Below are positions 425-35,209 of a stretch of 40,663 bases of DNA, in pieces. Every line of letters begins with the position of its first letter. Position 1 is the first letter of the stretch. The notes beneath the pieces were generated by a model. It saw nothing but the letters and a program-made list of their open reading frames with translations. It did no database searches and had not been told where the DNA came from. Source of the stretch: Caulobacter sp. D5 (lineage in GTDB: Bacteria > Pseudomonadota > Alphaproteobacteria > Caulobacterales > Caulobacteraceae); the NCBI RefSeq assembly GCF_003185805.1, contig NZ_QHJY01000112.1, forward strand, positions 1 to 40,663. Direction: 5' to 3'. A program made the translations under genes and the position numbers.

Positions 425-458
425 CGAAAAGCTCCGGACGCGGCCGGAGCGGCCGCGA

Positions 459-560
459 TCAGCGGTTGGAAATTGTGGGGCGAAGGGCCGGGCGCGCCTT
501 GGTCGACGCGCGCCATTCCGCCGGCATCGGCGGCTTCAGCTGTGCGACGAGGAAGGTCAT
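459..560 (-). CDS. Possible 33-residue small protein
   Basis: A short minus-strand frame starting MTFLVAQLKPPMPAEW and ending TISNR has about 85% G/C at third positions, like real genes here. It sits between the DUF4139 gene and the truncated gene, on the same strand. The start is poorly supported: GGAG lies about 12 bases upstream, further than usual. The frame also continues upstream to a GTG at 680 with weaker codon bias. The rest of 425-693 holds no other convincing gene. A GC-rich imperfect palindrome lies just before the truncated gene. Treat this as a candidate only. Confidence 0.25.
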   Translation of the reverse strand: MTFLVAQLKPPMPAEWRASTKARPALRPTISNR

Positions 561-693
561 GCGGCGGTTCGGCTCCGGAGACTGATCGGGAGCCGGCTGA
601 TCCCACGAGGCGCGGGTGAAGCGCAAGACCGGTGTTCGCCGATTTTGCGCATCGTCCGGTTGCTGTGGCGCTTGGGACACGCCAGGGGCGGCT

Positions 694-2265: not shown

Positions 2266-2269
2266 CAGA

Positions 2270-2404
2270 CCCTCCCCCTTCGGGGGGAGGTGTCGGCGAA
2301 GCCGACGGAGGGGGAAGTGGTCGCCGCTTTCAGCGATCGCACTCACCTCCGCAGGGACGTCCCCCTCCGGCCCTCCGGGCCACCTCCCCCTTCGGGGGGA
2401 GGGT
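2270..2404. repeat. Palindromic repeat, family A, copy 1
   Basis: Two outer hairpins of the form CCTCCCCCTTCGGGGGGAGG bracket inner stems (GTCGGCGAAGCCGAC and the GGCCCTCCGGGCC-type stem) in an inverted arrangement around a 40-base spacer. Related copies occur at 3896-4024, 18834-18944 and 21251-21379. It fills nearly the whole gap between the two DUF4139 genes, and its right arm provides the G-rich ribosome binding site of the downstream gene. Confidence 0.85.
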
Positions 2405-2426
2405 CTATCCGCGCGGCCCATCAGCC

Positions 2427-3809: not shown

Positions 3810-3895
3810 CGGCGCGACGTCTCCCTACTCTCTTTGCGGCCACGGTTTCACGGCTGCGCGGGAAAGTCGAGAGATTATGGGTGTAATATTAGACG

Positions 3896-4024
3896 CTCCC
3901 CCTGAAGGGGGAGCTGTCGCGGAGCGACTGAGGGGGATCTGATCTGTGAGCCGGCGGCCGCTCTGACCTCAGCAGGGACTTCCCCCTCCGGCCCTCCGGG
4001 GCCACCTCCCCCTTCAGGGGGAGG
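3896..4024. repeat. Palindromic repeat, family A, copy 2
   Basis: Outer hairpins CTCCCCCTGAAGGGGGAG and CCTCCCCCTTCAGGGGGAGG bracket inner stems (GTCGCGGAGCGAC and GGCCCTCCGGGGCC). It separates the DUF4139 promoter side from msrA and ends two bases from the msrA stop codon, where it could also act as a transcription or decay barrier. Confidence 0.85.
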
Positions 4025-4025
4025 A

Positions 4026-4607
4026 TCATTTCCCCCAAACCTGCGCCAGCCGGCGATCCCGCCCGCACCCCGTGCGGTAGAGGTGGTACTCGACCGAATT
4101 GTTCTTCGCGTAGTCGCGGTGATAGGCCTCGGCCGGCCAGAAGGTTTGCAGCGGCAGGATCTGGGCCTTCATCGTGCCGGTCTTCAGGCGCTTGGCGGCC
4201 TCGGCGCGGGAGCGCTCGGCGGCGGGGCGCTGCTCGGCGTCGACGAAGACGGCGGGGCGGTAGGAGGGGCCGCGGTCGCAGAACTGGCCTTCGTCGTCGG
4301 TCGGATCGACCAGCTTCCAGTAGCGCTGCAGCAGGAAGGCGTAGGGCAGTTTGGCCGGGTCATAGGTGACGCGGACGGCCTCGTAGTGGCCGCTGCGCTC
4401 GCTGGTCACGTCGCGATAGGTCGGGTTCTTCACGTGGCCGCCGGTGTAGCCGCTCTCGACCTTTACGACGCCGGGAATGCCCCGCATGTCGTTCTCCATG
4501 CACCAGAAGCAGCCGCCGGCGAAGACGGCGGTCCTGGTCGGCGCCGCCAGGGCCGCGACGGGGAGGGCGGTCGCGAGGGCGATCAGCAGCAGGAGGCGGC
4601 GAAGCAT
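4026..4607 (-). CDS. msrA: Peptide methionine-S-sulfoxide reductase, exported form
   Basis: A 193-residue MsrA that reduces the S epimer of methionine sulfoxide in oxidised proteins. The catalytic motif GGCFWCMEN lies near residue 33, followed by GYTGGHVKNPTYRDVTS and the His/Glu phrase GHYEAVRVTYDP. The C-terminal TGCGRDR carries a candidate resolving cysteine. I chose the ATG at 4607, preceded by AAGGA at normal spacing; it begins MLRRLLLLIALATALPVAAL, a good signal peptide, so the enzyme probably acts outside the cytoplasm. A longer frame from 4646 lacks a better ribosome site. It follows the two ACT-like genes by 64 bases on the same strand and may share their transcript. No MsrB domain is fused and no membrane partner gene is adjacent. 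Confidence 0.95.
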   Translation of the reverse strand: MLRRLLLLIALATALPVAALAAPTRTAVFAGGCFWCMENDMRGIPGVVKVESGYTGGHVKNPTYRDVTSERSGHYEAVRVTYDPAKLPYAFLLQRYWKLVDPTDDEGQFCDRGPSYRPAVFVDAEQRPAAERSRAEAAKRLKTGTMKAQILPLQTFWPAEAYHRDYAKNNSVEYHLYRTGCGRDRRLAQVWGK

Positions 4608-4671
4608 GGGCGGTCCTTTCGAGGCGTCGTCCATAGATACGGCCAAGCGGGCCGAAAGGTTTTGAACGAGC

Positions 4672-4947
4672 CTATCGCCAACCGTGGCCGACGCCGCGCA
4701 CCGCCGGAACCGCCGCCAGGCGCGCCGCGAGCGTGTGGGCCCGGTCGTCGCCCTGGTCGTCGATCTCCAGGCGGATGGCGATGTCGGCGCCCTCAGGCTG
4801 GGCGGTCAGGGCGCGCAGGCGCACCTGCTGCACGCTGGCCACGCCCAGCACCCGCATCAGGGTGTCGGGCGTGTCTTCAGCGGTGACGAGGAAGAGGCGG
4901 CGCCGATCCTCGCGAAATTTGTCGTCTTCCGGTTTGAGAAGGCTCAA
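4672..4947 (-). CDS. Small ACT-like protein, second of a coupled pair
   Basis: A 91-residue protein read from a TTG whose bases overlap the TGA of the preceding gene (TTGA, 4-base overlap), the usual sign of translational coupling. A GTG four codons upstream is the alternative start. The core RRLFLVTAEDTPDTLMRVLG, then VQQVRLRALTAQ and IAIRLEIDDQ, has the strand-helix-strand-strand-helix-strand pattern of ACT regulatory domains, ending with AVRGVGHGW. It resembles the first gene of the pair in layout. ACT domains bind amino acids or act as regulatory subunits, but no enzyme partner is adjacent, so the ligand is unknown. The ACT assignment rests on pattern and could be wrong. Confidence 0.7.
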   Translation of the reverse strand: MSLLKPEDDKFREDRRRLFLVTAEDTPDTLMRVLGVASVQQVRLRALTAQPEGADIAIRLEIDDQGDDRAHTLAARLAAVPAVRGVGHGWR

Positions 4948-5240
4948 GGCCGCACCCACTGATGTTCCACGCTGGCCGAGTTGACGCCGGGCCAGGCGGC
5001 CAGGTCGCGGGCGAGGAGGCGGGCGGCCTGGTCGCCCAGGTGGCGCACGCGCAGGGAGGCCTCGACCAGCTGGCCGACGGGCTTCAGGGACAGGTTGCAC
5101 AGCTCGGCGCCGCTGTCGGCCAGGCTCTGGCGCACGGCGTCCAGCGCGCTGGGGGCGTCCTGGGCGCAGAGGAACAGCTGGTGGACCGTGACGCCGTCAT
5201 GGTCGCTGTGGAAGGCTGGTGGGGAAGGCAGGTAGCTCAT
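4944..5240 (-). CDS. Small ACT-like protein, first of a coupled pair
   Basis: A 98-residue protein beginning MSYLPSPPAFHSDHDG. The ATG at 5240 has AAGGATC about nine bases upstream; a longer frame would run back into the terminator hairpin, so I reject it. The body (VTVHQLFLCAQDAPSALDAV, then ELCNLSLKPVG, then QLVEASLRVRHL, then LAAWPGVNSASVEHQW) fits an ACT/ferredoxin-like fold, similar in plan to the downstream partner. Such paired short ACT proteins resemble detached small regulatory subunits. It is preceded on its own strand by a strong hairpin with a T run, so transcription from upstream would stop before it unless read through. Ligand and partner are unknown. Confidence 0.72.
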   Translation of the reverse strand: MSYLPSPPAFHSDHDGVTVHQLFLCAQDAPSALDAVRQSLADSGAELCNLSLKPVGQLVEASLRVRHLGDQAARLLARDLAAWPGVNSASVEHQWVRP

Positions 5241-5287
5241 GTTCGAAGATCCTTTGAGTTTTTGAAGGACCGTCGGATCGCGCAACG

Positions 5288-5322
5288 AAAAAGCCCCGCT
5301 CCTTTCGGAGGCGGGGCTTTTT
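5288..5322. terminator. Bidirectional intrinsic terminator
   Basis: AAAAAGCCCCGC pairs with GCGGGGCTTTTT around a short CTCC...GGAG inner stem, giving T runs on both strands. On the minus strand it ends any transcript from the thiolase side and lies 47 bases before the ACT-like pair, so it could also act as an attenuator for them. Confidence 0.85.
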
Positions 5323-5368
5323 CAGATCTTGCGATCCTTCGGCTTGGTTTCTGGGGAACCCTTGTTCC

Positions 5369-5509
5369 CTAGTCTGCGCGCCGTCTTTGCCCCGTCCGTA
5401 CAGGCACGGTTTTAATCTGGGTAATCTTCGACATCATGGCGCACCACATCGCGACGCCGGCGGTGAGGCCAGTCGTAAACAGCGCGATGGTGGTGAAGTT
5501 CGACAGCAT
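5369..5509 (-). CDS. Possible 46-residue single-pass membrane protein
   Basis: The frame reads MLSNFTTIALFTTGLTAGVA, then MWCAMMSKITQIKTV and a basic tail RTGQRRRAD, with one clear membrane-spanning stretch and a positive C-terminus. No strong ribosome site precedes the ATG, and the frame is open upstream (LQAYWNPSDP before the Met), so the start is uncertain. It lies between the thiolase stop and the terminator at 5288-5322, on the same strand as both. I do not recognise a family. It could be a real small membrane protein or a chance frame. Confidence 0.4.
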   Translation of the reverse strand: MLSNFTTIALFTTGLTAGVAMWCAMMSKITQIKTVPVRTGQRRRAD

Positions 5510-5618
5510 GGGGTCGGAAGGGTTCCAGTAGGCTTGCAGGTCAACAGGTAACGCTTGCGGGCCCGCCGCGCAAGGTCTTGCCGCGCGACGGGCCTTAATG
5601 CCGCGGTTTGGGCAGATT

Positions 5619-6809
5619 TTAGGCGAGTTCGATGGCCATGGCCGTGGCCTCGCCGCCGCCGATGCACAGCGAGGCCAGGCCGCGCTTGGCCTTGCGAGCC
5701 TGGAGGGCAGAAATCAGGGTGCACAGGATGCGGGCGCCCGATGCGCCGATGGGGTGCCCCAGGGCGCAGGCGCCGCCGTTGACGTTCAGCCTGTCGTCCG
5801 GGATGCCCAGTTCCTTCTGGGCGATCATGGCCACGACGGCGAAGGCCTCGTTGACCTCGAACAGGTCGACGTCGTCGACGCTCCAGCCGGCGCGGGCCAG
5901 GGCCTTTCTCATGGCCGGCACGGGGGCGGTGGTGAACAGGCCCGGCTCATGGGCGTGGGCGGCGTGGCTGACGACGGTGGCGACCACCGTCAGGCCCAGG
6001 GCCTCGGCGATGCTCTTGCGGGTCATGACCAGGGCCGCGGCGCCGTCGCTGATCGAGCTGGAATTGGCCGCCGTGATCGACCCGTCGCGGGAGAAGGCCG
6101 GACGCAGGGTGGGGATCTTGGCCGGATCGGCCTTCAGCGGCTGCTCGTCGGTGTCGATGGTTTCGACGCCCTTGCGGGTGGTCACCGTCACCGGCGCGAT
6201 CTCGGCGGCGAAGGCTCCGCCCTCGACGGCGGCCTTGGCCTTGAGCAGGCCGCGCGTGGCGTAGTCGTCCATCGCCTCGCGGGTGAACTGGTAGTCGGCG
6301 GCCGTGTCCTCGGCGAAGGCGCCCATCAGCTTGCCGGGGGCGTAGGCGTCCTCCAGGCCGTCCAGGTACATGGAGTCCCAGATCTGGTCGTGGCCGATGC
6401 GGGCCCCGCTGCGGTGCTTGGCCATCAGGTAGGGCGCCCCGGTCATGCTCTCCATGCCGCCGGCAACGACCACGTCGGCGCTGCCGGCCAGCAGGGCGTC
6501 GTGGGCCATGATCGCCGCCTGCATGCCGCTGCCGCACATCTTGTTGACCGTCGTGGCCTCGACCGACTTGGGCAGGCCCGCGCCCAGGGCGGCCTGGCGG
6601 GCGGGGGCCTGGCCCAGGCCGGCCGGCAGCACGCAGCCCATGATGATCTGGTCGACCTTGTCACCCGAGAGCCCCGCGCGCTCCAGGGCCGCCTTGACGG
6701 CCGTCGCGCCCAGCTCGGTGGCCTTCACCCCGCCCAGCGCGCCCTGGAAGCCGCCCATCGGCGTGCGGGCGAAGCCGGCGATCACCACCGGATCGGCGTG
6801 CTTGGACAT
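5619..6809 (-). CDS. Acetyl-CoA C-acetyltransferase (thiolase)
   Basis: A 396-residue thiolase that condenses two acetyl-CoA to acetoacetyl-CoA or runs the reverse cleavage. The nucleophilic cysteine is in NKMCGSGMQA (Cys92), the catalytic His in GHPIGASGA (His352) and the second Cys in SLCIGGGEA (Cys382). Also typical are VNVNGGACALGHP and the ESMTGAPYL region. Length matches biosynthetic thiolases. The ATG at 6809 has GGAGCT eight bases upstream; a longer frame to 6872 has no such site. It is divergent from an HxlR regulator across 245 bases. It stands alone without reductase or synthase genes beside it, so a role in polyhydroxybutyrate synthesis or in fatty or amino acid breakdown cannot be decided here. 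Confidence 0.93.
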   Translation of the reverse strand: MSKHADPVVIAGFARTPMGGFQGALGGVKATELGATAVKAALERAGLSGDKVDQIIMGCVLPAGLGQAPARQAALGAGLPKSVEATTVNKMCGSGMQAAIMAHDALLAGSADVVVAGGMESMTGAPYLMAKHRSGARIGHDQIWDSMYLDGLEDAYAPGKLMGAFAEDTAADYQFTREAMDDYATRGLLKAKAAVEGGAFAAEIAPVTVTTRKGVETIDTDEQPLKADPAKIPTLRPAFSRDGSITAANSSSISDGAAALVMTRKSIAEALGLTVVATVVSHAAHAHEPGLFTTAPVPAMRKALARAGWSVDDVDLFEVNEAFAVVAMIAQKELGIPDDRLNVNGGACALGHPIGASGARILCTLISALQARKAKRGLASLCIGGGEATAMAIELA

Positions 6810-6983
6810 GGTTGAGCTCCAGATTGGTTTGTTTTGCGGCGGAATAGGCCCCGGATCGGCGCGCTTGCGCAAGCGTCTTGCCGAAATCTTTCCGAGAGCA
6901 AGAAGCGGCCGGCGGCGGAAGGGCGGCTCCCGTCGTCGGCCGGTCAGTCGAGCAATGAACCGAGAGAGTCAATTGCGATTAGA

Positions 6984-7004
6984 AACCTACTCTGGTTCGT
7001 ACTC
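6984..7004. promoter_or_regulatory. Candidate regulator site between thiolase and HxlR genes
   Basis: AACC-N6-GGTT forms an inverted repeat at 6984-6997, overlapped by two direct TACTC repeats (6988-6992 and 7000-7004) spaced 12 bases apart, about one helical turn. It lies in the divergent gap, 50-70 bases before the HxlR ATG. HxlR proteins often bind short repeats near their own gene. The assignment is inference from position and symmetry. Confidence 0.35.
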
Positions 7005-7054
7005 AAAAGCAACGGCCCTTGCATTCCCTCGCGGAACGCCGCACTTTCCTCCGT

Positions 7055-7561
7055 ATGGGTCGCACCGCCGATTACAGCCGCCAACGCTGCGCCATCGCCG
7101 CCACCCTCGAGGTCGTCGGCGATCCCTGGACCCTGCTGATCCTGCGCGACGCCTTCCAGGGCGTGCGGCGGTTCGAGCAGTGGCAGGACCGCCTGGGCGT
7201 GGCCCGCAACGTGCTGGCCGCCCGGCTCAAGAGCCTGGTCGGTCACGGGGTGATGGAGACCCGCCGCTATTCAGAGCGGCCGCCGCGCCATGAATATGTG
7301 CTGACCGCCAAGGGGCGCGATCTGTCGGCCGTGCTGCTGACCATGGCCGAGTGGGGCGATCGCCACGTCTATGGCGTGGGCAATGGGCCGGTGCGCTTCG
7401 TGCACAAGGCCTGCGGCTGCGACTTCCATCCCAAGCTGGCCTGCGAGGCCTGCGGTCAGGTGGTCGACAGCCGCGACCTGTCGCGGGTGATCCACGAGGG
7501 CCAGTCCCCGACCGTGGGGGAAGCGCTGGACGCGGTCGCGGTGAAGACGGCGGCCGAGTAG
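7055..7561 (+). CDS. HxlR-type winged-helix regulator with a four-cysteine tail
   Basis: A 168-residue DNA-binding regulator. The HxlR pattern is clear: Cys12 near the N-terminus, LEVVGDPWTLLILRDAFQGVRRF, LGVARNVLAARLKSLVGHGVM and RHEYVLTAKGRDL. I take the ATG at 7055; a TTG at 7019 would add 12 residues but has no better ribosome site, and no strong site precedes either. After the winged helix comes an extra segment with Cys120, Cys122, Cys130 and Cys133 (CGC...CEAC), which looks able to bind a metal or sense thiols. Cys12 is the redox-sensing position in some family members. Its divergent position suggests control of the thiolase gene or of itself; that is inference. Confidence 0.88.
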   Translation: MGRTADYSRQRCAIAATLEVVGDPWTLLILRDAFQGVRRFEQWQDRLGVARNVLAARLKSLVGHGVMETRRYSERPPRHEYVLTAKGRDLSAVLLTMAEWGDRHVYGVGNGPVRFVHKACGCDFHPKLACEACGQVVDSRDLSRVIHEGQSPTVGEALDAVAVKTAAE

Positions 7562-21392: not shown

Positions 21393-22298
21393 CTACAGAT
21401 ACTTGCTCAGGCTCAGCGACGAGAGGGTGCTGATCATCGAGTACATGGCTTCCAGCTGGGTCTCGTACTGGGTGGCCAGGACGGCGGTCTCGGCGAGGTC
21501 GGCGTCCTTGAGGTTGGACGACAGGGTGTCGATGCTGTCGATCTTGGCCTCGTTGCGCGAGGTCAGGTCCGAGAGGGTGGAGGCCTGCAGCGAGACCTGC
21601 TCCTGCAGCGAACCGACGCCGGTCACCGCGTCGCTGACCATGTCGTAGGCGCTGGAGATCACCGTGGTGTCGCTGGGCGAGGCGATGACCATCTTCAGCG
21701 CGCGGGCCAGCTCCTCGAAGGCCGAGGAGTCGGCGGTGACCGACAGGTTGATGCTCTGGCCGTCGGTGGTGGTGAAGGTGCGGCCGGCGCTGGAGCCCTG
21801 GTAGTAGTTGGTGTCGGCGACGCTGGTGTCGGCCGGCGGGTCGTAGTCGGTGTCGCTGTAGTCGACGGCGGCGGCGTCGCCGGCCGTGCCCGAGAACAGG
21901 TAGACCCCGGCCGAGTTGCTGTTGAGCAGGGCCTGCAGGTCGTTCAGCCAGCTGGTGGCGTACTGGACGGTGGTGTCGGCGTCGGTGGTCGTGCTCGACA
22001 TCATCGAGGCCAGCTGGCTCTTGATGGTGGTGGCCAGGTCGGCGATGTCGCCCAGGGCCGAGTAGGACGCGTTGACATAGGCCGTCGCGGTGCTGGCCGC
22101 GCTGTTCTCGGCCGTCAGGGCCGCGCTCTGGCTGGACAGGCGCAGCAGGCTGCCGGTGTCCTTGCCCAGGCCCCCATAGGTGGTCGACTTCAGGCCCGAG
22201 GCGGTCTGGGCCTGCTGGTCGGCCAGCTTGGCCTGCACCTTCAGGCTGGCCGTCAGCATGGTGTTGGAGTGGTTGAAGGTGGCGATGCGGCTGATCAT
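21393..22298 (-). CDS. flgL: Flagellar hook-filament junction protein FlgL
   Basis: A 301-residue flagellin-like junction protein, last gene of the minus-strand operon; its ATG is two bases after the flgK stop. It starts MISRIATFNHSNTMLTASLK, the helical N-terminus that packs in the export channel, and ends AVLATQYETQLEAMYSMIST then LSSLSLSKYL, the matching C-terminal helix. The middle is Asp/Ser/Thr-rich (SDTDYDPPADTSVADTNYYQ). No cysteine is present, as in other exported axial proteins of this locus. It sits between the hook-filament adaptor FlgK and the flagellin. Lys and Arg are scarce. Confidence 0.88.
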   Translation of the reverse strand: MISRIATFNHSNTMLTASLKVQAKLADQQAQTASGLKSTTYGGLGKDTGSLLRLSSQSAALTAENSAASTATAYVNASYSALGDIADLATTIKSQLASMMSSTTTDADTTVQYATSWLNDLQALLNSNSAGVYLFSGTAGDAAAVDYSDTDYDPPADTSVADTNYYQGSSAGRTFTTTDGQSINLSVTADSSAFEELARALKMVIASPSDTTVISSAYDMVSDAVTGVGSLQEQVSLQASTLSDLTSRNEAKIDSIDTLSSNLKDADLAETAVLATQYETQLEAMYSMISTLSSLSLSKYL

Positions 22299-22300
22299 GG

Positions 22301-24028
22301 TCAGCTCACCATGCTGATCAGGGCTTCGAACAGCTCCTTGGCCATCGAGACGAGCTGGGCGGTGGCCTCGTACTGCGACTGGTAGGTCGTCAGCAGGGCC
22401 AGCTCCTCGTCGACATTGACGGCGGTGGTGTTCTGCAGCCGGCTGGTGGCCGCCTCGTAGGTGGCCTGGGCGGTCTCGGAGTTGGAGGAGGCGTCGGAGA
22501 CCAGGGTCGCCGCGCCGGCGACGAAGCTGGCGGTGTAGGACGACAGGGTGACGGTCTTGGCCGGCTGGTCGCCGGCCGCCGCGAAGGTCAGGGTCCCCGA
22601 CAGCATCGAGGTCAGGGCGTCGACGGTGGTGCTGTCGGAGGTCGACAGGGCGCGGTCGCCGGCCGACAGCGTGGTCGAGGTGTCGAGCGCGCCGGTGGCC
22701 AGCAGGCTGTAGTCGTTCGCCAGCTTCGACGAGATCGAGATGTCGGCGGCGGTCGAGCCCGAGAACAGGTCGTTGAAGCCGAAATAGTCGGAGACGCCTT
22801 GCGCGTCGTCGCCGACCGAGGCGCCGATGTCGCCCATGGCCACGCCGTTGGCGCTGTCGTCGGCGGTGATGGTCAGCTTGCCGTCCGTGCCGATGCTGGC
22901 CGACAGGCCGTCGATGGCGTCGAGGGCGTTCACCAGATCATCGACGCTGGAATAGGACGACAGGTCCAGGTCCTCGGTCGAGATCGTGGTCCCGCTGGAA
23001 TCGACCACGGCCACCCGCAGCGTGCCGCTGGCCGAGAAGCCGTCGCTGCCCGACACCGTGCCCGCGCTGGTCAGGGTGGTGGGCGCGGGCACGGCCGAGC
23101 CGGCGTTGGTGATGGCGTTGACCTGCGAGATCAGGGTCGACGCCATGGCGTCCAGCTCGGCCTGCTCGTCGACCAGGGTCTCGTCGCGCAGGGTGATCAG
23201 CGCGCCCAGCTGGCCGGAATCGACGCTCTCGGTGATGTCCTTGCCGTTCAGCGTGATCCCCGAGATCGTGTCGGGATAGACGCTGGTCGCGCCGAGGGCG
23301 CTGGAGGCGGTGTAGCTGAGCTTGGCGGCGGTGGTGCCCAGGAGCTGGTCGCCGCCGATGGTGTAGACCACCAGCTTGTTGTCCGACGTCGTGTAGCTGC
23401 TGATGCCGATCAGGCCCGACAGGGTGGTCAGGGCCGAGTCGCGCTGATCCTGCAGGCTGGTGACGTCGCCGCCCTGGGCGGTAACCGACGAGATCTGGTC
23501 GTTCAGCGAGGCCAGGGTCGACAGGGTCGAGTTGATGGTGTCGACCGTCGTGGAGATGTCGGTGTTGGCCTGGGTGCGCAGGTCCTGGATCGAGGCCGAC
23601 AGGCCGCCGATGCTGGCCGCCAGCGACGAGGCGGCCGAGACCACCGAGGCCTTGGCCGTGTCGCTGTCGGCGCTGGCCGACAACGAGGTCAGGGCGCTGG
23701 TGAAGGTGTCGAGCAGGCTGGAGAGGTCGCTGCCGGCGTCCACCGAGCCGAGGGCGGCGTCGTAGGACTGCATGTAGCTGTCGATCGTCGAGGCGTAGCC
23801 CGCGCCGGCCGCCGTCTTGACCACGGTCTTGGCCAGATAGGTGTCGGCGGCCCGCTGGATCGTGGTCGTCGAGGCCGAGTTCAGCGCCGTCGTCGCGGTC
23901 GAGCTGACGCTCTTGCGCGTGTAGGTCAGGTCGTCCGCGTTGGCCACGTTGGCGTTGGCCACCGCGATCTGCATCTGCGTGCTGGACAGCGCGGACGAGG
24001 CGGAGCTGATGATCGACGACAGCGACAT
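22301..24028 (-). CDS. flgK: Flagellar hook-associated protein 1, FlgK
   Basis: A 575-residue FlgK, the first junction protein after the hook. The N-terminus MSLSSIISSASSALSSTQMQ and VANANVANADDLTYTRKSV carry the conserved rod-hook-type start (with NVANADD in place of the usual NIAN). The conserved block ASLNDQISSVTAQGGDVTS, then LQDQRDSALTTLSGLIGI follows, and the C-terminus is NVDEELALLTTYQSQYEATA, then QLVSMAKELFEALISMVS. The central region is Ser/Thr/Asp/Ala-rich without cysteine. AAGGA precedes the ATG. It is flanked by a small helical gene upstream and flgL downstream, the classical flgN-flgK-flgL order. Confidence 0.9.
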   Translation of the reverse strand: MSLSSIISSASSALSSTQMQIAVANANVANADDLTYTRKSVSSTATTALNSASTTTIQRAADTYLAKTVVKTAAGAGYASTIDSYMQSYDAALGSVDAGSDLSSLLDTFTSALTSLSASADSDTAKASVVSAASSLAASIGGLSASIQDLRTQANTDISTTVDTINSTLSTLASLNDQISSVTAQGGDVTSLQDQRDSALTTLSGLIGISSYTTSDNKLVVYTIGGDQLLGTTAAKLSYTASSALGATSVYPDTISGITLNGKDITESVDSGQLGALITLRDETLVDEQAELDAMASTLISQVNAITNAGSAVPAPTTLTSAGTVSGSDGFSASGTLRVAVVDSSGTTISTEDLDLSSYSSVDDLVNALDAIDGLSASIGTDGKLTITADDSANGVAMGDIGASVGDDAQGVSDYFGFNDLFSGSTAADISISSKLANDYSLLATGALDTSTTLSAGDRALSTSDSTTVDALTSMLSGTLTFAAAGDQPAKTVTLSSYTASFVAGAATLVSDASSNSETAQATYEAATSRLQNTTAVNVDEELALLTTYQSQYEATAQLVSMAKELFEALISMVS

Positions 24029-24032
24029 GGCG

Positions 24033-24359
24033 CTAGTCCTTGCGGCGGCGGTGGTCGCGCAGGGCCCGGACGCTGCCGCGATAGCCGGCGGTGGCGCTCA
24101 GGCCGCGGGTGACGGCCTGGATGCGTTCGCGGCTCTCGGCCATGTCGGTCTCGAGCGCGGCGACGCGGGTTTCCAGCACAGTCTGCACGTCGTGCAGGTT
24201 CGACAGCATCAGCAGGCGCTGGTCGTCCGACAGGGCCGACAGGCCCTCGGCGATGCTCCGCGCCAGGGCCCGCGCCTCCTCGACCGAGGAGACCACCGGC
24301 GTGTCGCGGTCCCGGCGCGCCTTCTGGGCGCGGGTATGCAGGCGTTCGATGGTGCCCAT
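24033..24359 (-). CDS. Candidate FlgN-type export chaperone
   Basis: A 108-residue, charged, mostly helical protein (MGTIERLHTRAQKARRDRDT, later SDDQRLLMLSNLHDVQTVLETRVAALETDMAESRERIQAV is one long helix) ending in basic RDHRRRKD. It lies between flgE and flgK with five bases to flgK, where chaperones for FlgK and FlgL commonly sit. A GTG at 24368 overlapping the flgE stop (GTGA) is an alternative start that would give coupling. I recognise no sequence signature, so the FlgN role is inferred from position, size and helicity. Confidence 0.6.
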   Translation of the reverse strand: MGTIERLHTRAQKARRDRDTPVVSSVEEARALARSIAEGLSALSDDQRLLMLSNLHDVQTVLETRVAALETDMAESRERIQAVTRGLSATAGYRGSVRALRDHRRRKD

Positions 24360-24364
24360 GGCGC

Positions 24365-25642
24365 TCACCGCACCGCCTGGATCAGGGTGTCGAACATGTC
24401 GCTGGTGGCGCTGACGACCTGCGAAGCGGCCGAATAGGCCTGCTGGGCGATGATCATCTTGTTGAACTCGGTGGCGGTGTCGGTGGTCGAGCCTTCGAGG
24501 GCGCTGGCCACCAGGCTGCCGGCGCTGCCTTCGCCCGGAAGGTTCAGGTGCACCTGGCCGGCGGCCGAGTTCTCATCATACACCGTGCCCGAGACGTGGG
24601 TCAGGCCGTTGGGGTTGCTGAAGGTGGCGACCGGGATCTGGTAGATCGCCAGGCTGACCCCGTTGTCGAAGTTGGCCGTGACTAGGCCGCTCTCGTCGAT
24701 GGTGATGCCCGACAGCTCGCCGTAGTTGGCGCCGTCCTGCTCGAAGGTCGGGCTCAGCGACAGCGTCGAGGAGGTCGAGGCGAACTGGGTCAGGCCGTCG
24801 GTGCCGCCGGTGTCGCCCAGGTCCAGCGTAATGGCGCTGTCGGCGGCGCCGGTGGAAAAGCCGGTGATCGACAGGTCGACGGGCGACGGGTCGGTCGAGG
24901 CCAGGCTGCCGTCGGAATTGAAGGTGACGGTCACCGAGCTGGGGCTGATCGTGCCCGAGGTGGTCGAGCTGTCCGACGTCAGGGTCGGATCCGACAGGCT
25001 CAGCGTCCAGGTGTTGTCGCCGGTCTTGGTCCAGGTCTGGCCGACGGTGTGGCTGACGCCCAGGGAGTCGATGACCTCCATGCTGGTGTCGTAGCTGTCG
25101 CCGGTGACCGTATCGGCCGGCAGGTTGGCGGCCATGGTCACCGTCGAGGTGGCCTTGGCCGTGCCGCTGATCGAGTCGAGGTTGATCGCCGACAGGCTGG
25201 TCAGGTCGCTGGTGTTGGACGTCAGGATGTTGCCATCCGAGTCCGTCGCGTAGCCCATCAGGTAATAGCCTTCGCTATTGACCAGATAGCCGTCGGAATC
25301 CGTCGAGAAGCTGCCGTTGCGGCTGTAGACGAGCGCGCTGCCGGTGTCGCCCGGATCGGCCGCGACCACGAAATAGCCCGAGCCGTCGATGGCGACGTTG
25401 GTCGAGACGCTGGTCGACGAGATCGTGCCGGTGACGTTCAGCGCCTGGCTGGTCTTGGCCGCCACCGAGCTGGTCGAGGTGTTGGAGTTCATCGCGCCGC
25501 TGACCAGCGACTGGAACGAGACCTCGGAGGTCTTGTAGGCCGTGGTCGAGGCGTTGGCGATGTTCTCCGAGATCGCGGACAGGGCCACGCTCTGGGCGGT
25601 CAGGCCGGAGACGGCCGTGGAGAGGGCGGAGGAAAGGCTCAT
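24365..25642 (-). CDS. flgE: Flagellar hook protein FlgE, short form
   Basis: A 425-residue hook protein. It begins MSLSSALSTAVSGLTAQSVA, with SENIANASTTAYKTSEVSFQ as the conserved rod/hook N-terminal motif, then NVAIDGSGYFVVA and YSRNGSFSTDSDGYLVNSEG. The C-terminus TATEFNKMIIAQQAYSAASQ, then VVSATSDMFDTLIQAVR is the standard closing helix. It has no cysteine, only about five Lys and two Arg, and is strongly acidic and Ser/Thr-rich. Its length is near the enteric hook protein. A site AAGGGCGAG lies before the ATG, 12 bases after the flgD stop. No hook-length gene fliK is nearby. Confidence 0.9.
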   Translation of the reverse strand: MSLSSALSTAVSGLTAQSVALSAISENIANASTTAYKTSEVSFQSLVSGAMNSNTSTSSVAAKTSQALNVTGTISSTSVSTNVAIDGSGYFVVAADPGDTGSALVYSRNGSFSTDSDGYLVNSEGYYLMGYATDSDGNILTSNTSDLTSLSAINLDSISGTAKATSTVTMAANLPADTVTGDSYDTSMEVIDSLGVSHTVGQTWTKTGDNTWTLSLSDPTLTSDSSTTSGTISPSSVTVTFNSDGSLASTDPSPVDLSITGFSTGAADSAITLDLGDTGGTDGLTQFASTSSTLSLSPTFEQDGANYGELSGITIDESGLVTANFDNGVSLAIYQIPVATFSNPNGLTHVSGTVYDENSAAGQVHLNLPGEGSAGSLVASALEGSTTDTATEFNKMIIAQQAYSAASQVVSATSDMFDTLIQAVR

Positions 25643-25654
25643 CTCGGCTCGCCC

Positions 25655-25981
25655 TTATTCGCTTTGCGAGGCCAGCAGCTGGACCTGGGTCAGCAGCGAC
25701 GAGAGGTTGTCCGACATGCTGGTGGTCGTGTCGGACAGGGTCGACATGGTGTCCGACAGCGAGGTCAGGGTGTCGTTGGTGCTGATCTGCTGCTCCAGCG
25801 AGGCGTAGCTCGCCAGCTGGCTGGTGAACTCGGTCGGATCGGTCGGATCCAGCGGGTTCTGGTTGGTCAGCTGGGTCATCAGCAGCGACAGGAAGTCGGT
25901 CGTGCCGAGCTGCAGCGTGCTCGACGCGCTGGACGTGCTCGCGGTGCTGGTCGTGCTCGTCGTCGAAGAGACGGTGGTCAT
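25655..25981 (-). CDS. flgD: Hook-cap scaffold FlgD, N-terminal domain only
   Basis: A 108-residue protein, first gene of the minus operon. The ATG at 25981 has GGAGA eight bases upstream; the frame is open further up but without support. Ser/Thr-rich [20 protein letters not shown] leads into the FlgD core [20 protein letters not shown], then [20 protein letters not shown] and a helical end [13 protein letters not shown]. The C-terminal beta-sandwich of the roughly 220-residue family members is missing; some alphaproteobacterial FlgD are similarly short. It forms the cap under which hook subunits assemble. Confidence 0.85.
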
Positions 25982-26056
25982 GGAGAGATCTCCGGTGAAA
26001 TCGGTCCGACGCCCTGGGCGCCGATCGATGGGTTCAACGGAGGCTCCGCCGCGGAT

Positions 26057-26191
26057 GGGGCGGTTTATTTTTCGCGGACCGTTTTCGGCCTCGCGGAAGA
26101 GGGGGCTACGCGCGCGTTCCTCATACGGGGCGACGCGGTCCGGACGGCCCGGCGGGAAGGACCCGCAAAAAGCGAAAAGAAAAACCGCCCC
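26057..26191. promoter_or_regulatory. Inverted shared box in the divergent flagellar promoter region
   Basis: GGGGCGGTTTATTTTTCGC at 26057-26075 recurs in inverse as GCGAAAAGAAAAACCGCCCC at 26172-26191. Read toward each operon, both give GCGAAAA, an A-rich link, then AAACCGCCCCATCC. Each box therefore faces its own genes, in the 323-base gap (25982-26304) between flgD and the flagellin gene. On the flagellin side AACC is followed after 17 bases by CGTC, an ECF-like spacing, but the flgD side has no matching -10. No sigma-54 or sigma-28 consensus was seen in the gap. A shared activator or sigma-factor site is inferred. Confidence 0.55.
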
Positions 26192-26304
26192 ATCCTTCGG
26201 GGACGTCCCGTTCAACCCGTCGAAGCCAGGCCGTCAGAACGGCGGACAGCTTCCCGGCCGGACTCTCCCCCGGACGGACTCCAGACAGAGAACCGGACTA
26301 GAAC

Positions 26305-27144
26305 ATGCCAGTTATCTCCACCAACACGGCCGCCAACACCGCCCTGCGCTATCTGAACAACAACTCGACGGCGCAGAGCGAGTCCCTGGCGAAGCTGTCG
26401 AGCGGCTCGCGGATCGTCAGCGCGAAGGACGACGCCTCCGGCCTCGCCATCGCGACCTCCATGAACGCCGACGTGACCGTGCTGAACCAAGCCGCCACCA
26501 ACGTGACCAGCGGCACCTCGGTGCTGAACACCGCGGACGGCGCGCTGTCGAACATCGCCGACATCCTGCAGCGTATGAAGTCCCTGACGGCCCAGGCCCA
26601 GTCGGGGAGCTCGAGCTCTGACGACATCAGCTACATCGACGCTGAATATCAACAGCTGCTCGAGGAAGTGGACGACATCACCACGTCGACCACCTTCAAC
26701 GGCATCACGCTGCTGGATGGCACGAGCGACTACTACTCCGCCGACGGCGTTACGGGCGGCGTCGACTTCCTGGTCGGCACCTCGTCGAGCGACGTGATCA
26801 CCGTGAAGCTGGGCGATGCGGACACCACCGCTCTGTCGCTCAACAGCACCTCGATCACCTCGACCTCGGCGTCGGGCCTGATGGACAAGATCGACGACGC
26901 GATCACCGACATCTCGAAAATGCGAGCCGACGTGGGCGCCACCCTGTCGCGTTTCGAATTCCGGGGCGACGTGATCTCGACCTCGCTCGAAAACCTGGAG
27001 TCGGCCGCGTCGGCCATCACCGACGTGGACATCGCCAGCGAGCAGACCAACTTCACCAACGCTCAGACCCTGACCAGCGCAGCGATTTCGGCCCTCAGCC
27101 AGGCCAACTCGATGAGCCAGTCGCTTCTGAAGTTGCTGCAGTAG
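26305..27144 (+). CDS. Flagellin
   Basis: A 279-residue flagellin, the filament subunit. N-terminal D0/D1: MPVISTNTAANTALRYLNNN, then LAKLSSGSRIVSAKDDASGL, then LNTADGALSNIADILQRMKS. C-terminal D1/D0: DISKMRADVGATLSRFEFRG, then ASAITDVDIASEQTNFTNAQ, then ALSQANSMSQSLLKLLQ. The central exposed domain is short and rich in Ser, Thr and Asp, so the filament is small-domain, like other alphaproteobacterial flagellins. No cysteine. The ribosome site before the ATG is weak. It is followed by fliD and fliS rather than by flaF and flbT, which are the usual companions in Caulobacter-type flagellin loci as far as I recall. Confidence 0.93.
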   Translation: MPVISTNTAANTALRYLNNNSTAQSESLAKLSSGSRIVSAKDDASGLAIATSMNADVTVLNQAATNVTSGTSVLNTADGALSNIADILQRMKSLTAQAQSGSSSSDDISYIDAEYQQLLEEVDDITTSTTFNGITLLDGTSDYYSADGVTGGVDFLVGTSSSDVITVKLGDADTTALSLNSTSITSTSASGLMDKIDDAITDISKMRADVGATLSRFEFRGDVISTSLENLESAASAITDVDIASEQTNFTNAQTLTSAAISALSQANSMSQSLLKLLQ

Positions 27145-27194
27145 TCGGCTCATGCCGTGACGGCGCGGGCCAGCCCGCGTCGTCCTGCAGACTG

Positions 27195-27223
27195 GGCGGG
27201 AGGATTCTCTGGATCCTCCCGCC
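27195..27223 (+). terminator. Hairpin between flagellin and fliD
   Basis: An 11-base perfect stem, GGCGGGAGGAT at 27195-27205 and ATCCTCCCGCC at 27213-27223, is followed by GACTTTCC without a full T run. It lies 51 bases after the flagellin stop and 19 before fliD. It would favour a short, abundant flagellin mRNA with partial read-through into fliD and fliS, by termination or 3' end protection. Confidence 0.65.
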
Positions 27224-27241
27224 GACTTTCCGGACATCGCC

Positions 27242-28930
27242 ATGACGACGACCAGCACCGTCTCGACCTCGGGGTCGACGACCTACCTGACCGGCACGAT
27301 CTCGGGGCTCGACACCGACTCGCTGATCGAGGCCGCCGTCGCGCAGAAGACCGCGCGAGCCGACACCATCGACGCCAAGGTCACGACCAACGAGACCAAG
27401 ATCGCCTCCTATCAGGAGCTGCAGACGCTGCTGCAGGCGGTCTCGGACTCCATGGAGTCGCTGGCCTCGACGACCTACAGCTCGGTCTCGACCACCACCA
27501 ACGCCTTCGACGAGAAGAGCGCCTACCTCACCGCCTCGGACGGCACCGACGCGACGGACGTGCTCGCGGTCAGCGCCGACGCCGACGCGGTCGCGGCCTC
27601 CTACTCGATCACCGTCACCCAGCTGGCCAAGGCCATGAAAGTCGCCTCGACCGCCCAGACGGCCGACACGGTCCTGGGCCTGGACGGGGTGTTCTCGTTG
27701 AACACCACCGACGGCACGGCCGCCGAGATCACCGTCACCTCGGACATGACGGTCGAGGACCTGGCCGACGCCATCAACAACGCCAGCGGCGACACCGGCG
27801 TCGTCGCCACCCTGATCGCCAGCTCGACCGGCACGCGCCTGGTGCTGTCGACCAGCGACACCAACCAGGAAATCACTCTCTCGACCGTCTCGGGCGACGA
27901 CATCGGCCAGAGCGTCGGCCTGACCGACAGCGCGGGCGACTTCTCCAACGTGCTGCAGGAAGCCCAGCCGGCCATCGTCACCATCGACGGCGTCGAGATC
28001 GAGAGCGACAGCAACGAGCTGACCGACACCATTCCGGGCCTGTCGATCTCGCTGCTGCAGGCCACCTCGGGCCAGACCATCACCCTCGACATCGAGGCCA
28101 ATTACGACGACATCAAGACGGCGATCACCGACTTCATCACCGCCTACAACGCGTTGCGGTCGTTCGTCGTCACCAACCAGACGGTCGGTTCGGACGGCAC
28201 GGTCTCGGACGACGCGGTGCTGTTCGCCGACAGCATCCTGCGCGACGTCAACCGCCGCCTGAGCGACATGCTGGGCGGGACCGCCGGCTCGGACGACGAG
28301 CTGACCGACCTGTCGGCCCTGGGCGTCACCATCAACGCCGACAACCAGCTGGAGCTGACCGACGAGACGACGCTCGACAACCTGCTGCTGACCGACCTGT
28401 CGAGCGTGGCCAAGTTCTTCGAGACCGGCTTCTCCAGCAGCAACAGCAATCTGAAGCTGCTGAAGAACGACACCACCGTCTCGTTCGACTTCGACATGCA
28501 GGTCAACGTCACCGACGGGGCGATCTCCAGCGTGTCGGTGAACGGCGACTCCAGTCTGTTCACGATCTCCGGCAACCGGATCATCGGCGCGACCGGCTCG
28601 ATCTACGAGGGCCTGTCCTTCGCCCTGGCCTCGCCGACCTCCGGCACGATCTCGGTCGAGATCAACCAGGGCTTCGCGAACATGATCACGAGCCTGATCG
28701 ACGACTACGCCAACACCTCCAGCGGCGTGATCCAGCAACGGATCGAAAGCCTGGAGACGGTCAACGAAGACCTCACCGACCAGTCCGACCAGATCCGCGA
28801 CGACGCGGAGACGTACCGGACCAAGCTGATCTCGAAATACTCGGCGATGGAGACCGAACTCTACGCCGCCCAGATCCTCCAGCAGCAGATCGCAGCCATC
28901 TTGGGAGCCGACAGCAGTGACGACGACTAA
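27242..28930 (+). CDS. fliD: Filament cap protein FliD
   Basis: A 562-residue FliD, the cap under which flagellin subunits are inserted. The N-terminal motif is TGTISGLDTDSLIEAAVAQK, with a following helix TNETKIASYQELQTLLQAVS. The middle contains VTQLAKAMKVASTAQTADTV, and INNASGDTGVVATLIASSTG then RLVLSTSDTNQEI, typical of FliD. The C-terminus (LETVNEDLTDQSDQIRDDAE, then LISKYSAMETELYAAQILQQ and IAAILG) is the conserved coiled cap helix, ending in acidic DSSDDD. No cysteine, strongly acidic. fliS overlaps its last 14 bases. Confidence 0.9.
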   Translation: MTTTSTVSTSGSTTYLTGTISGLDTDSLIEAAVAQKTARADTIDAKVTTNETKIASYQELQTLLQAVSDSMESLASTTYSSVSTTTNAFDEKSAYLTASDGTDATDVLAVSADADAVAASYSITVTQLAKAMKVASTAQTADTVLGLDGVFSLNTTDGTAAEITVTSDMTVEDLADAINNASGDTGVVATLIASSTGTRLVLSTSDTNQEITLSTVSGDDIGQSVGLTDSAGDFSNVLQEAQPAIVTIDGVEIESDSNELTDTIPGLSISLLQATSGQTITLDIEANYDDIKTAITDFITAYNALRSFVVTNQTVGSDGTVSDDAVLFADSILRDVNRRLSDMLGGTAGSDDELTDLSALGVTINADNQLELTDETTLDNLLLTDLSSVAKFFETGFSSSNSNLKLLKNDTTVSFDFDMQVNVTDGAISSVSVNGDSSLFTISGNRIIGATGSIYEGLSFALASPTSGTISVEINQGFANMITSLIDDYANTSSGVIQQRIESLETVNEDLTDQSDQIRDDAETYRTKLISKYSAMETELYAAQILQQQIAAILGADSSDDD

Positions 28931-29288
28931 CCAGGCGCTCAGCGCCTACGCGGCTTCCAGCCGCCTCACCGCCAACCCGCGCGACGTGCTGGCTTCCGTG
29001 CACGAGGAGCTCTACCGCGCGATCGCCTCGGCAAAATTCGCCCACGAGCAGGGGCGGCTGGATCAAATGTGCCGACACGCCATGCGCGCCACCCAGATCC
29101 TGACCGCCCTGTCGACGACGCTGGATTTTTCGGCGGCCGGCAAGGACGGCGCGACGTTGCGAAAGTTCTACCAATACGTGCTCGACGGCCTGCTTCGCGC
29201 CAGTCGCAGCAAAGATGTGTCCAGTGTGTATCAAATCGTACTGGACTTGTTGCGCCCGTTTTGCAAAGAACTTCGTTCTGAAAAATAG
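28917..29288 (+). CDS. fliS: Flagellin export chaperone FliS
   Basis: A 123-residue helical protein read from GTG, with GGGAG about ten bases upstream and a 14-base overlap with fliD. FliS binds the flagellin C-terminus to prevent early polymerisation. The family pattern is visible: ALSAYAASSRLTANPRDVLA near the N-terminus (in place of the usual Y...V..A sequence), VHEELYRAIASAKFAHEQGR, HAMRATQILTALSTTLDFSA and VLDGLLRASRSKDVSSVYQI. Two cysteines are present, as allowed for a cytoplasmic protein, unlike the exported neighbours. The last 80 bases are noticeably richer in A and T than the rest of the locus. Confidence 0.82.
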   Translation: MTTTNQALSAYAASSRLTANPRDVLASVHEELYRAIASAKFAHEQGRLDQMCRHAMRATQILTALSTTLDFSAAGKDGATLRKFYQYVLDGLLRASRSKDVSSVYQIVLDLLRPFCKELRSEK

Positions 29289-29289
29289 C

Positions 29290-29336
29290 AATGTACCGAT
29301 AGTATCGGAAATGTATCGATCAAATACAGTAATGTA
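29290..29336. promoter_or_regulatory. Three phased AATGTA repeats and a palindrome upstream of the sigma-54 promoter
   Basis: AATGTA occurs at 29290-29295, 29310-29315 and 29331-29336, spaced 20 and 21 bases, so on one face of the helix. CCGATA-G-TATCGG at 29296-29308 is a perfect palindrome between the first two. The stretch is AT-rich for this genome and ends 14 bases before the sigma-54 promoter. Candidate binding sites for an activator or repressor of the ECF gene; inference. Confidence 0.45.
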
Positions 29337-29349
29337 GTTATTCGATATA

Positions 29350-29364
29350 TGGCACGCTGTTTGC
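29350..29364 (+). promoter_or_regulatory. Sigma-54 promoter upstream of the ECF sigma gene
   Basis: TGGCACGCTGTTTGC matches the sigma-54 (RpoN) consensus TGGCACG-N4-TTGC at every fixed position, with GG at 29351-29352 and GC at 29363-29364. It predicts a start near 29376, 29 bases before the ECF ATG. In Caulobacter, sigma-54 drives many late flagellar genes, which agrees with the flagellar setting. Confidence 0.85.
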
Positions 29365-29404
29365 CTGTTCCATTGCGATACAGCGATGGAGGCGAGTAAT
29401 CGCC

Positions 29405-30073
29405 ATGGCGAATTCAGCGACGATTGCGACGACGGGCGAGTTTGGTCTGTCTGACGTGCGCTCTGACGAGGAGCTGTTCCTGGCTTGCCGCGACGGCGAC
29501 CAGACGGCTTTTCGGGTTCTGGTCGACCGGCACCTGCGGATGGTGCGGCGACTGGCGCTCAACGTTCTGGGCGACGTTCAGGAGGCCGAGGACGCGGCCC
29601 AGGAGGCATTTATTGCCGCCTGGCGCGCTCGCGAGCGCTGGACGCCGGACGCCCGGTTCTCGACCTGGCTGCACCGCATCGCCGTCAACAAGGCCATCGA
29701 TCGTCGCCGGGTCCGCAAGGCGGTTCCGGAATCCCAGGAGGTCATCACCCGCCTGGCCGACGCCGAAGTTCAGGCGCCGGCCCAGGCCGACGCCCTCGCC
29801 AATCTCGAACGCACGGAGACCGCCAAGACGCTTCAGAAAGCCCTCGACAAGCTTCCCGACACCCAGCGCCAGGCGCTGACCATGTTCTATTTCGAAGAGC
29901 TCGACGTCGGTAGAATCGCCGACGCCATGGACTGTTCGGAACAGGCGGTGCGCTCGCTCCTGAAACGGGGCCGGCAAACCCTCAAGACTCGACTCCAGAA
30001 ACAGAAGAAGATCTGTGGCTATGGACCTGAAACTATTCGAAGCCCGGCTGAAGGCGCTGGGTCCCGCGCTTGA
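29405..30073 (+). CDS. ECF-type RNA polymerase sigma factor
   Basis: A 222-residue sigma-70-family factor. Region 2 covers about residues 20-100: DEELFLACRDGDQTAFRVLV, then LALNVLGDVQEAEDAAQEAF, then RFSTWLHRIAVNKAIDRRRV. Region 4 covers about 138-200: LQKALDKLPDTQRQALTMFY, then VGRIADAMDCSEQAVRSLLK. The start has GGAGGCGAG about eight bases upstream. The last 18 residues overlap the next gene by 53 bases in another frame. It sits directly after fliS behind a sigma-54 promoter, so it is probably made late in flagellar development or under the same cue. The targets may include the two adjacent flagellar operons, which share an upstream box. That link is inference. Confidence 0.9.
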   Translation: MANSATIATTGEFGLSDVRSDEELFLACRDGDQTAFRVLVDRHLRMVRRLALNVLGDVQEAEDAAQEAFIAAWRARERWTPDARFSTWLHRIAVNKAIDRRRVRKAVPESQEVITRLADAEVQAPAQADALANLERTETAKTLQKALDKLPDTQRQALTMFYFEELDVGRIADAMDCSEQAVRSLLKRGRQTLKTRLQKQKKICGYGPETIRSPAEGAGSRA

Positions 30074-30236
30074 CCGCTGGCCGCCCGACGAGGCTGAGGC
30101 GGCGATCGCGCTGATGTCGGCCTCGGAAGAGGCCCAGGACCTGTTTGCGACCATGACCGCCGAGGATCTCGGGGTGTTCGACGACCCCGGCGGCGACCTG
30201 TCGGCCCTGGCCGATCGCATCGGCAAGGCGCTGTAG
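30021..30236 (+). CDS. Small partner of the ECF sigma factor, possible anti-sigma
   Basis: A 71-residue acidic helical protein, MDLKLFEARLKALGPALDRW, then PPDEAEAAIALMSASEEAQD, ending ADRIGKAL. The gene starts 53 bases inside the sigma gene in another frame, so the two are translated together. The motif of a phrase like LGPxLDRWP then an Ala-rich helix is often seen in small proteins encoded right after ECF sigma genes in alphaproteobacteria. It lacks a membrane segment or zinc motif. An anti-sigma or sigma-modulating role is inferred from overlap and size. Confidence 0.7.
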   Translation: MDLKLFEARLKALGPALDRWPPDEAEAAIALMSASEEAQDLFATMTAEDLGVFDDPGGDLSALADRIGKAL

Positions 30237-34195: not shown

Positions 34196-35053
34196 CTACG
34201 CCCGCACCCGCGCCAGCTTGTCGGGGTTGCGCATGGTGTAGACGGCGGCGATGCGGCCATCGACGATGTCCAGGCCCATGGTCTGGAACACCACGCCGTC
34301 ATGGGCCATCACCACCCCCGGCTGGCCGTTGATGCGGGCCAGGCGCGCGGTCGTCCCGTCGGGATGGGGCCACTTGCGGGCGATGCCTTCCAGCAGCCGT
34401 ACGGCGTTGTCGAGGCCGAACACCGGGTTCATGGTCGCCGAGACCTTGCCGCCGCCGTCGGCGTGCATGACCACGTCCTTGGCCAGCAGGCCGCGCAGGG
34501 TCGCCGCGTCGCCGCTGAGGGCGGCCGCGACGAAGGCCTCGGTCAGGCGGCGCTCCTCGTCGGCGCTGGGCTTGTAGCGGGGCTTGCCGGCCTTGACGTG
34601 CTCACGGGCCCGGGCGGCCAGCTGGCGCACGGCCGCCTCGGAGCGGTCCAGGGTGGCGGCGATCTCGGAAAAGGGCGTGTCGAACACGTCGTGCAGCAGG
34701 AAGGCCGCCCGCTCCAGCGGGGTCAGGCGCTCCAGCGCCAGCAGGAAGGCGACCGTCAGATTCTCGCCCAGGCCGAAGGTCTCGTCGACATCGACCACCG
34801 GCTCGGGCAGCCATTCGCCGACATAGAGTTCGCGCCGGGCGCGGGCCGACTTCAGGCGGTCCAGGCAGAGGCGCGAGACCACGCGGTTGAGAAAGCCGGC
34901 CGGGTTGCCGATCTCGGCCGTCTCGACCTCGCGCCAGCGCAGCCAGGCGTCCTGCACCACGTCCTCGGCCTCGGCCCGCGAGCCCAGCATGCGATAGGCC
35001 AGGCCCGTCATGGCGGGGCGGCGGTCTTCGAAGATCGTGTCGGCGGCGCTCAT
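34196..35053 (-). CDS. ECF41-type sigma factor with C-terminal NTF2-like domain
   Basis: A 285-residue sigma factor; ATG at 35053 with GAGGGA upstream. Sigma region 2 covers about 8-75 (EDVVQDAWLRWREVE and FLNRVVSRLCLDRLKSARAR) and region 4 about 105-155 (LTPLERAAFLLHDVFDTPFS, EIAATLDRSEAAVRQLAARA). The ECF41 marks are all present: WLPEP at 81-85 in the linker, DGGGK at 199-203 in the NTF2/SnoaL-like extension and NPDKL at 276-280 near the end. In this group the extension regulates the factor in place of a separate anti-sigma. Known group members usually sit beside a carboxymuconolactone decarboxylase, oxidoreductase or epimerase gene; none is visible here. Confidence 0.93.
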   Translation of the reverse strand: MSAADTIFEDRRPAMTGLAYRMLGSRAEAEDVVQDAWLRWREVETAEIGNPAGFLNRVVSRLCLDRLKSARARRELYVGEWLPEPVVDVDETFGLGENLTVAFLLALERLTPLERAAFLLHDVFDTPFSEIAATLDRSEAAVRQLAARAREHVKAGKPRYKPSADEERRLTEAFVAAALSGDAATLRGLLAKDVVMHADGGGKVSATMNPVFGLDNAVRLLEGIARKWPHPDGTTARLARINGQPGVVMAHDGVVFQTMGLDIVDGRIAAVYTMRNPDKLARVRA

Positions 35054-35209
35054 GGTCGATCCCTCGGTTTGCCCGACAGGGCGAGGCGAAGGCGCCAGAC
35101 GTGACATGGCCGCGAGCTTTTTTCCCGCGAATTCCGCGCCGGCCTTTTTCTGCCTTTGGCGGCTTACGCCGCCGGGGAGGGATCCCGGCGGCGCGGCGGG
35201 GGAGGCCGT

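Follow-up and report, generated by a model that had tools for sequence, protein, structure and literature searches.

Can a single flagellar basal body be completed with two different hooks and filaments? The question is raised by a locus of Caulobacter sp. D5 at positions 21393-30236 of a 40,663-nt stretch of DNA (contig NZ_QHJY01000112.1; 'the window' here means this whole stretch). The locus, which we refer to as the module, encodes the outer parts of a flagellum next to a sigma factor of the extracytoplasmic function (ECF) type and a small anti-sigma-like protein. An earlier reading of the sequence (the original prediction) took it for a second filament exported through a flagellar machine encoded elsewhere. 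We found that the second hook-and-filament set of most module-bearing genomes is not matched by a second basal body. We consider it likely that the module is a self-contained alternative hook-and-filament set, governed by a switch of the RpoE6-Asf6 type and built on a shared basal body.

Hook and basal-body genes in the source genome and the genus

The assembly of the source genome (5.29 Mb, in 587 contigs) encodes a main flagellar set apart from the module. Contig C365 carries a Caulobacter-type cluster with FliK, a FlgE of 559 amino acids (aa), FliF, FliG, FliH, FliN, an FlbD-type sigma-54 activator and FlhA, and contig C255 carries FlgC, an FlgB-like rod protein, FliE and FliP. The other FlgK and FlgL lie on contig C366, the other flagellins on C158, C247 and C578, and FlaF and FlbT on C247. 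Module and main proteins are 44% identical in FlgE, 29% in FlgK, 20% in FlgL and 26-27% in flagellin (two flagellins compared). With a different FlgE, FlgK and FlgL and several flagellins on other contigs, the filament set in the window is thus a second one and not the only one of the genome, as had been predicted. Contigs C247 and C578 (L027:1-687 and L028:1-687) both begin inside a flagellin gene, which suggests that the assembly breaks at similar flagellin copies.

Genome searches returned one FliF, and the window copy as the only FliD; no FliD was found in the C. vibrioides control genome. There is one flagellar FlhA. A second protein of the FHIPEP family is encoded on contig C230 (L025, positions 1-7406) beside SctU and a secretin, and so belongs to a non-flagellar type III secretion system, part of which is found there (SctU, an FliO-like protein, an SctV-like protein, the secretin and a transglycosylase). 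The refuting condition set by the original prediction, that this is the only hook and filament set, was checked and came out in its favour, and by the FliF and FlhA counts no separate MS (membrane and supramembrane) ring, rod and export apparatus, as a complete second flagellar system would have, was found for the module. FlgF/FlgG gave no match in the source genome; as they are absent from a 587-contig assembly, we repeated the FliF and hook counts in relatives, single-contig genomes included.

FliD_N was found in 18 of 75 Caulobacter genomes, one copy each, and the searches for FliF and hook genes covered these 18 FliD-bearing genomes and four single-contig genomes without FliD. All 18 have a module-type FlgE no more than 3.5 kb from FliD and, next to FliF, a different FlgE. 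Exactly one FliF of flagellar strength (>185 bits) was found in 16 of the 18, the source genome included, and four of these 16 are single-contig; an extra, weaker YscJ-like match (~116 bits) was found in eight of the 18. Each of the four single-contig genomes (G003, G011, G013 and G048) has the module, one flagellar-strength FliF and, among the matches listed, one FlgF/FlgG set, and their main hook genes lie at least 0.7 Mb from the module. Given two hook types in 18/18 genomes and one FliF in 16/18, hook and filament are doubled in most module genomes while the basal body is single, and the second-set reading of the window extends to its relatives. These gene counts suggest that the module uses the shared basal body and export machine; to that extent the core of the original prediction is supported.

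The two remaining genomes (G009 and G071) have a second FliF, on a contig other than that of the module. It is accompanied on one contig (G009:C42; G071:C1) by a further FlgE and FlgF/FlgG-like matches, and these genomes probably encode a complete second flagellum in addition to the module. In two other module-bearing genomes (G015 and G017), a further main-type flgE stands alone (L158:8350-10023 and L159:7758-9437), with no flagellar query genes in the surrounding 17-18 kb and no sigma-54 match.

The FlgE proteins of the module and of the main set form separate lineages: in a FlgE tree of 44 rows, 29 cluster-type and 9 main rows part at 100/100. The branch uniting all 29 cluster-type rows, the Azospirillum cluster included, has support of only 91/70. 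The FlgE of the module is 96% identical to that of Caulobacter hibisci. One module-bearing record named Caulobacter vibrioides T5M6 (L043) falls together with C. endophyticus 774 in this tree; its species name may be wrong, the C. vibrioides control genome being without FliD.

Genes, gene order and putative promoters of the module

Window genes were identified by profile matches (NCBIfam, TIGR and Pfam) with their bit scores, which confirmed that a complete external flagellar gene set with an ECF sigma pair lies at 21393-30236. The minus-strand arm comprises flgL for a hook-filament junction protein (21393-22298; NCBIfam NF006489, 263.9 bits, above cut-off), flgK (22301-24028; TIGR02492, 261.3 bits, and FlgK_D1), a gene for a small helical protein that is a candidate export chaperone, perhaps of the FlgN/FliT kind (24033-24368), flgE for the hook (24365-25642; NF004242, 528.7 bits, and the FlgE tree) and flgD for the hook cap (25655-25987; PF03963). 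The start of flgD is placed at the ATG at 25987, an in-frame ATG below a promoter-like motif. Divergent from this arm, the plus strand carries fliC for a flagellin of 279 aa (26305-27144; Flagellin_N, 122 bits), fliD for the filament cap (27242-28930; PF02465 and PF07195), fliS for the flagellin chaperone (28917-29288; PF02561), the gene for an RpoE6-like ECF sigma factor (29405-30073; ~41% identity to RpoE6 of Azospirillum brasilense) and, overlapping it, a gene for a 71-aa candidate anti-sigma factor of the Asf6 family (30021-30236), which had no match to a Pfam family. No broken genes were found in the window, and rough NG86 ratios of non-synonymous to synonymous substitution (dN/dS) are below 1 in all ten module genes (three relatives compared). 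Another gene of the sigma-70 family (303 aa; 34196-35107, minus strand) lies ~4 kb off the module.

Two ECF-type promoter-like motifs sit in the flgD-fliC intergenic region, both reading CGCCCCAT-N15-CGTT and pointing outward to both arms; one faces flgD (26036-26062, minus strand) and the other fliC (26186-26212, plus strand). The pattern CGCCCCA(T/A)-N15-CGT was found in both directions with the same spacing in 18 of 19 loci and in one direction only in the other (L049), a count from which we excluded L052, with its region of 5.9 kb, and the plasmid loci L109-L111, with their different gene order. Both motifs are also present in six further genomes (L141-L145 and L151); the other seven module stretches inspected with these come from contigs in the earlier count. 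Shuffling this region of the window base by base 20,000 times gave both motifs in no case and at least one in 13. In whole-genome searches, the strict motif hits the module two times in all six module genomes searched (of 18). Elsewhere it occurs seven times in those six genomes, compared with three times in four module-free genomes, and the reversed pattern gave one site across these ten. As strict sites off the module are near background in the ten genomes, we claim no wider ECF regulon; one such site lies on contig C115 of the source genome.

A sigma-54-type (-24/-12) promoter, TGGCACGCTGTTTGC, precedes the ECF gene (29350-29364, plus strand). Of 26 loci, 23 match a strict sigma-54 pattern at this place and 24 a looser one, where shuffles gave expectations of 0.008 and 0.11; the loci include many close relatives and are not independent. 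L110 (A. lipoferum) was dropped, fliS not having been found there, and L052, L061 and L111 lay outside the sample. Once one more letter is allowed, a relaxation made after the sequence of L145 was seen, this locus matches too, and the site is present in all 25 loci outside Azospirillum. No site was found before the ECF gene of A. brasilense (L109), in agreement with the lack of a promoter there in the published study (PMC12826043). From these patterns, transcription of the ECF gene probably depends on sigma-54.

Sigma-54-type sites also occur at the main hook block and at two flagellin genes. A palindrome, in a pattern chosen after the main promoters were seen, lies near seven of the eight main sigma-54 promoters (0.6 expected), and we take it to be the ftr site. 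FlbD binds ftr sites (PMC3930126). A link to the FlbD checkpoint was accordingly looked for as a palindrome at the ECF promoter; the palindrome was found at 0/25 (0.8 expected), which leaves the link unsupported.

Gene order was inspected in 25 of the 53 loci returned by a scan with the module FlgE, besides the window. The same divergent order is found in 18 (L038-L051, L053-L055 and L057), the small gene being missed by the queries in L049, L050 and L053-L055, and L055 having a partial flgK and no flgL match; L056 and L058-L062 show other arrangements. In L052, flgD, flgE, flgK, flgL, fliC and fliD were found, with no ecf or fliS match for these queries; it is a metagenome bin labelled Rickettsiales, with several flagellins and, by eye, the CGCCCCAT motif upstream of some genes. 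When 18 main-flagellum queries were placed on the 18 divergent loci by the best match per query, so that second hook or flagellin copies in the flanks could escape, one match was obtained beyond the module genes. It is a sigma-54 activator gene near the module in L055 (positions 2439-3722; 32% identity to the main FlbD-type protein), whose product could possibly activate the ECF gene. The neighbours of the module in the window (dioxygenase, LprI and Crp) are common to the close relatives L038-L043, L045 and L141 and were not seen in other loci such as L044, L047 and L051. As its neighbours differ between loci, the module occupies different chromosomal places.

Proposed mechanism and alternative explanations

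Under the reading that we favour, the sigma-54 promoter, with some activator, would make the ECF sigma factor, and Asf would restrain it. Sigma factor free of Asf would then fire both outward promoters; one arm would yield hook cap, hook and junction proteins and the other flagellin, cap and flagellin chaperone, and read-through of fliC-fliD-fliS would give more sigma factor. The products would be exported through, and assembled on, the sole Caulobacter basal body, so that the flagellum formed would differ in hook and filament. In this scheme we infer, from conserved sequence and from a homologue that has been tested, both that the motifs are working promoters and that Asf is an inhibitor. More tentatively, one basal body might be finished with either complete set, with the sigma-54-to-ECF relay choosing between them and Asf serving as a FlgM-like gate that opens on readiness of the export machine or on a signal. 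Several observations weigh against the favoured reading: FlgF/FlgG are missing from the incomplete assembly of the source genome itself; the spread of the module, counted by FliD, is patchy, both in the genus (18/75) and in a family-level sample (15/179 genomes); a second FliF occurs in two of the 18 module genomes; and the ECF promoters lack the palindrome of the main ones.

An alternative that deserves some weight, though we think it rather unlikely, is that module subunits are minor components mixed into the normal flagellum, as filament segments or cap, with no joint replacement of hook and filament. FliC2 of A. brasilense is described as a minor polar flagellin (PMC12826043). However, the module also encodes a hook, a hook cap and junction proteins behind the same motif, and the low identity of its flagellin (26-27%) and FlgL (20%) to the main ones makes co-assembly look hard. 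We give a much smaller chance to the module being half of a second complete flagellum, its basal body encoded at another place or missing from the assembly. The 587 contigs, the absence of FlgF/FlgG and the additional FliF, FlgE and FlgF/FlgG-like matches of G009 and G071 speak for it; against it, the second FliF of those two genomes is not on the contig of the module, and the four single-contig relatives, in which one FliF of flagellar strength and, in the matches listed, a single FlgF/FlgG set were found, led us to reject the idea that a basal body was missed through assembly gaps.

A decaying relic or a non-motile adhesive fibre would fit the patchy distribution and the fast divergence of flgK and flgL, but is very improbable given unbroken window genes, dN/dS below 1 for ten genes and motifs kept across genera. 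Slightly less probable still is export by the non-flagellar type III system of contig C230. The genome does encode SctU, an SctV-like protein and a secretin, but only eight of the 18 module genomes have a YscJ-like match; this indicator is imperfect, as the source genome has no such match and yet has an SctV-like gene. That the module is simply a piece of a split main locus has next to no probability: main flagellar genes are scattered over several contigs, but a separate second set in the genome refutes it, comprising a further flgE next to FliF, a further flgK and flgL, and other flagellins accompanied by FlaF/FlbT.

Relation to known systems and significance

This kind of system is already known from Azospirillum. 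What follows on A. brasilense is taken from one study (PMC12826043), where RpoE6 and Asf6 form a sigma/anti-sigma pair that alters filament composition: RpoE6 drives fliC2, from a mapped promoter CGCCAG-N16-CGTGAG, and is bound by Asf6. Deletion of asf6 leads to over-production of FliC2, loss of the polar flagellin band, poorer swimming and filaments that likely contain almost only FliC2, whereas no swimming defect was detectable on loss of fliC2. RpoE6 also controls metabolism, reportedly linking fructose use to the filament genes; what triggers the switch and how swimming is affected are left open there, and related clusters are named in Magnetospirillum, Rhodopseudomonas and Bradyrhizobium (PMC12826043). 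A fructose phosphotransferase system gene lies near the A. lipoferum cluster (L110:1-503), and an A. lipoferum plasmid carries rod and stator genes together with a separate FlgE, whose relatives are on other Azospirillum plasmids.

A profile of Asf built without Azospirillum sequences retrieved A. brasilense Asf6 (1.6e-12) and its A. lipoferum counterpart (4.8e-12) among 1637 open reading frames, which indicates that the Caulobacter sigma/anti-sigma switch is homologous to that of Azospirillum. Both clusters have flgD, flgE, a hypothetical-protein gene (hp, its homology being outside the comparison), flgK, flgL, fliC, fliD and fliS beside an ECF sigma gene, directly followed by a small Asf6-type gene that is adjacent to or overlaps it, and both have a small flagellin with a promoter-like motif before fliC. 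The Caulobacter motif, CGCCCC-N17-CGTT, has other letters and a spacer one base longer; it is related to that of Azospirillum, not identical. Unlike the A. brasilense cluster, the module has divergent arms and stands beside a main hook and filament that are distinct from it. Its ECF gene has a sigma-54-type promoter where A. brasilense showed none, and its strict motif is near background elsewhere, whereas RpoE6 also acts on metabolism (PMC12826043).

The Caulobacter main flagellum (sigma-54/FlbD/FlbT) is encoded in the same genome as the module, would share its basal body and likewise has sigma-54-type sites. It differs in its hook and flagellins, in having FlaF/FlbT, in the lack of FliD in the C. 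vibrioides control and in the palindrome (7/8 main promoters compared with 0/25 ECF promoters). Lateral flagella and Flag-2 systems resemble the module in placing a second hook and filament in one cell, but these complete second flagella carry their own basal-body and export genes, and none were found with the module. The FliA-FlgM system of enteric bacteria likewise pairs a sigma with an anti-sigma factor for late flagellar genes; the sigma factor of the module is ECF-type, and the motifs would put hook genes under it too. A review describes the Caulobacter flagellum as controlled by sigma-54, with six flagellins and no FliA.

Judged on titles and the openings of abstracts, the literature yielded no report of a second hook/filament set in Caulobacter. 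As far as these searches show, the stand-alone second set beside a distinct main hook and filament, the outward motifs on both arms and the sigma-54 wiring of the ECF gene are new. Caulobacter is a leading model of flagellar assembly, and those of its species that have a main hook and filament apart from the module offer a cleaner test than Azospirillum. Strains with the module make it possible to test directly if two different hooks fit one basal body, and they bear on how the export gate chooses and on the purpose of an ECF-controlled filament; one motor could probably take either of two propellers.

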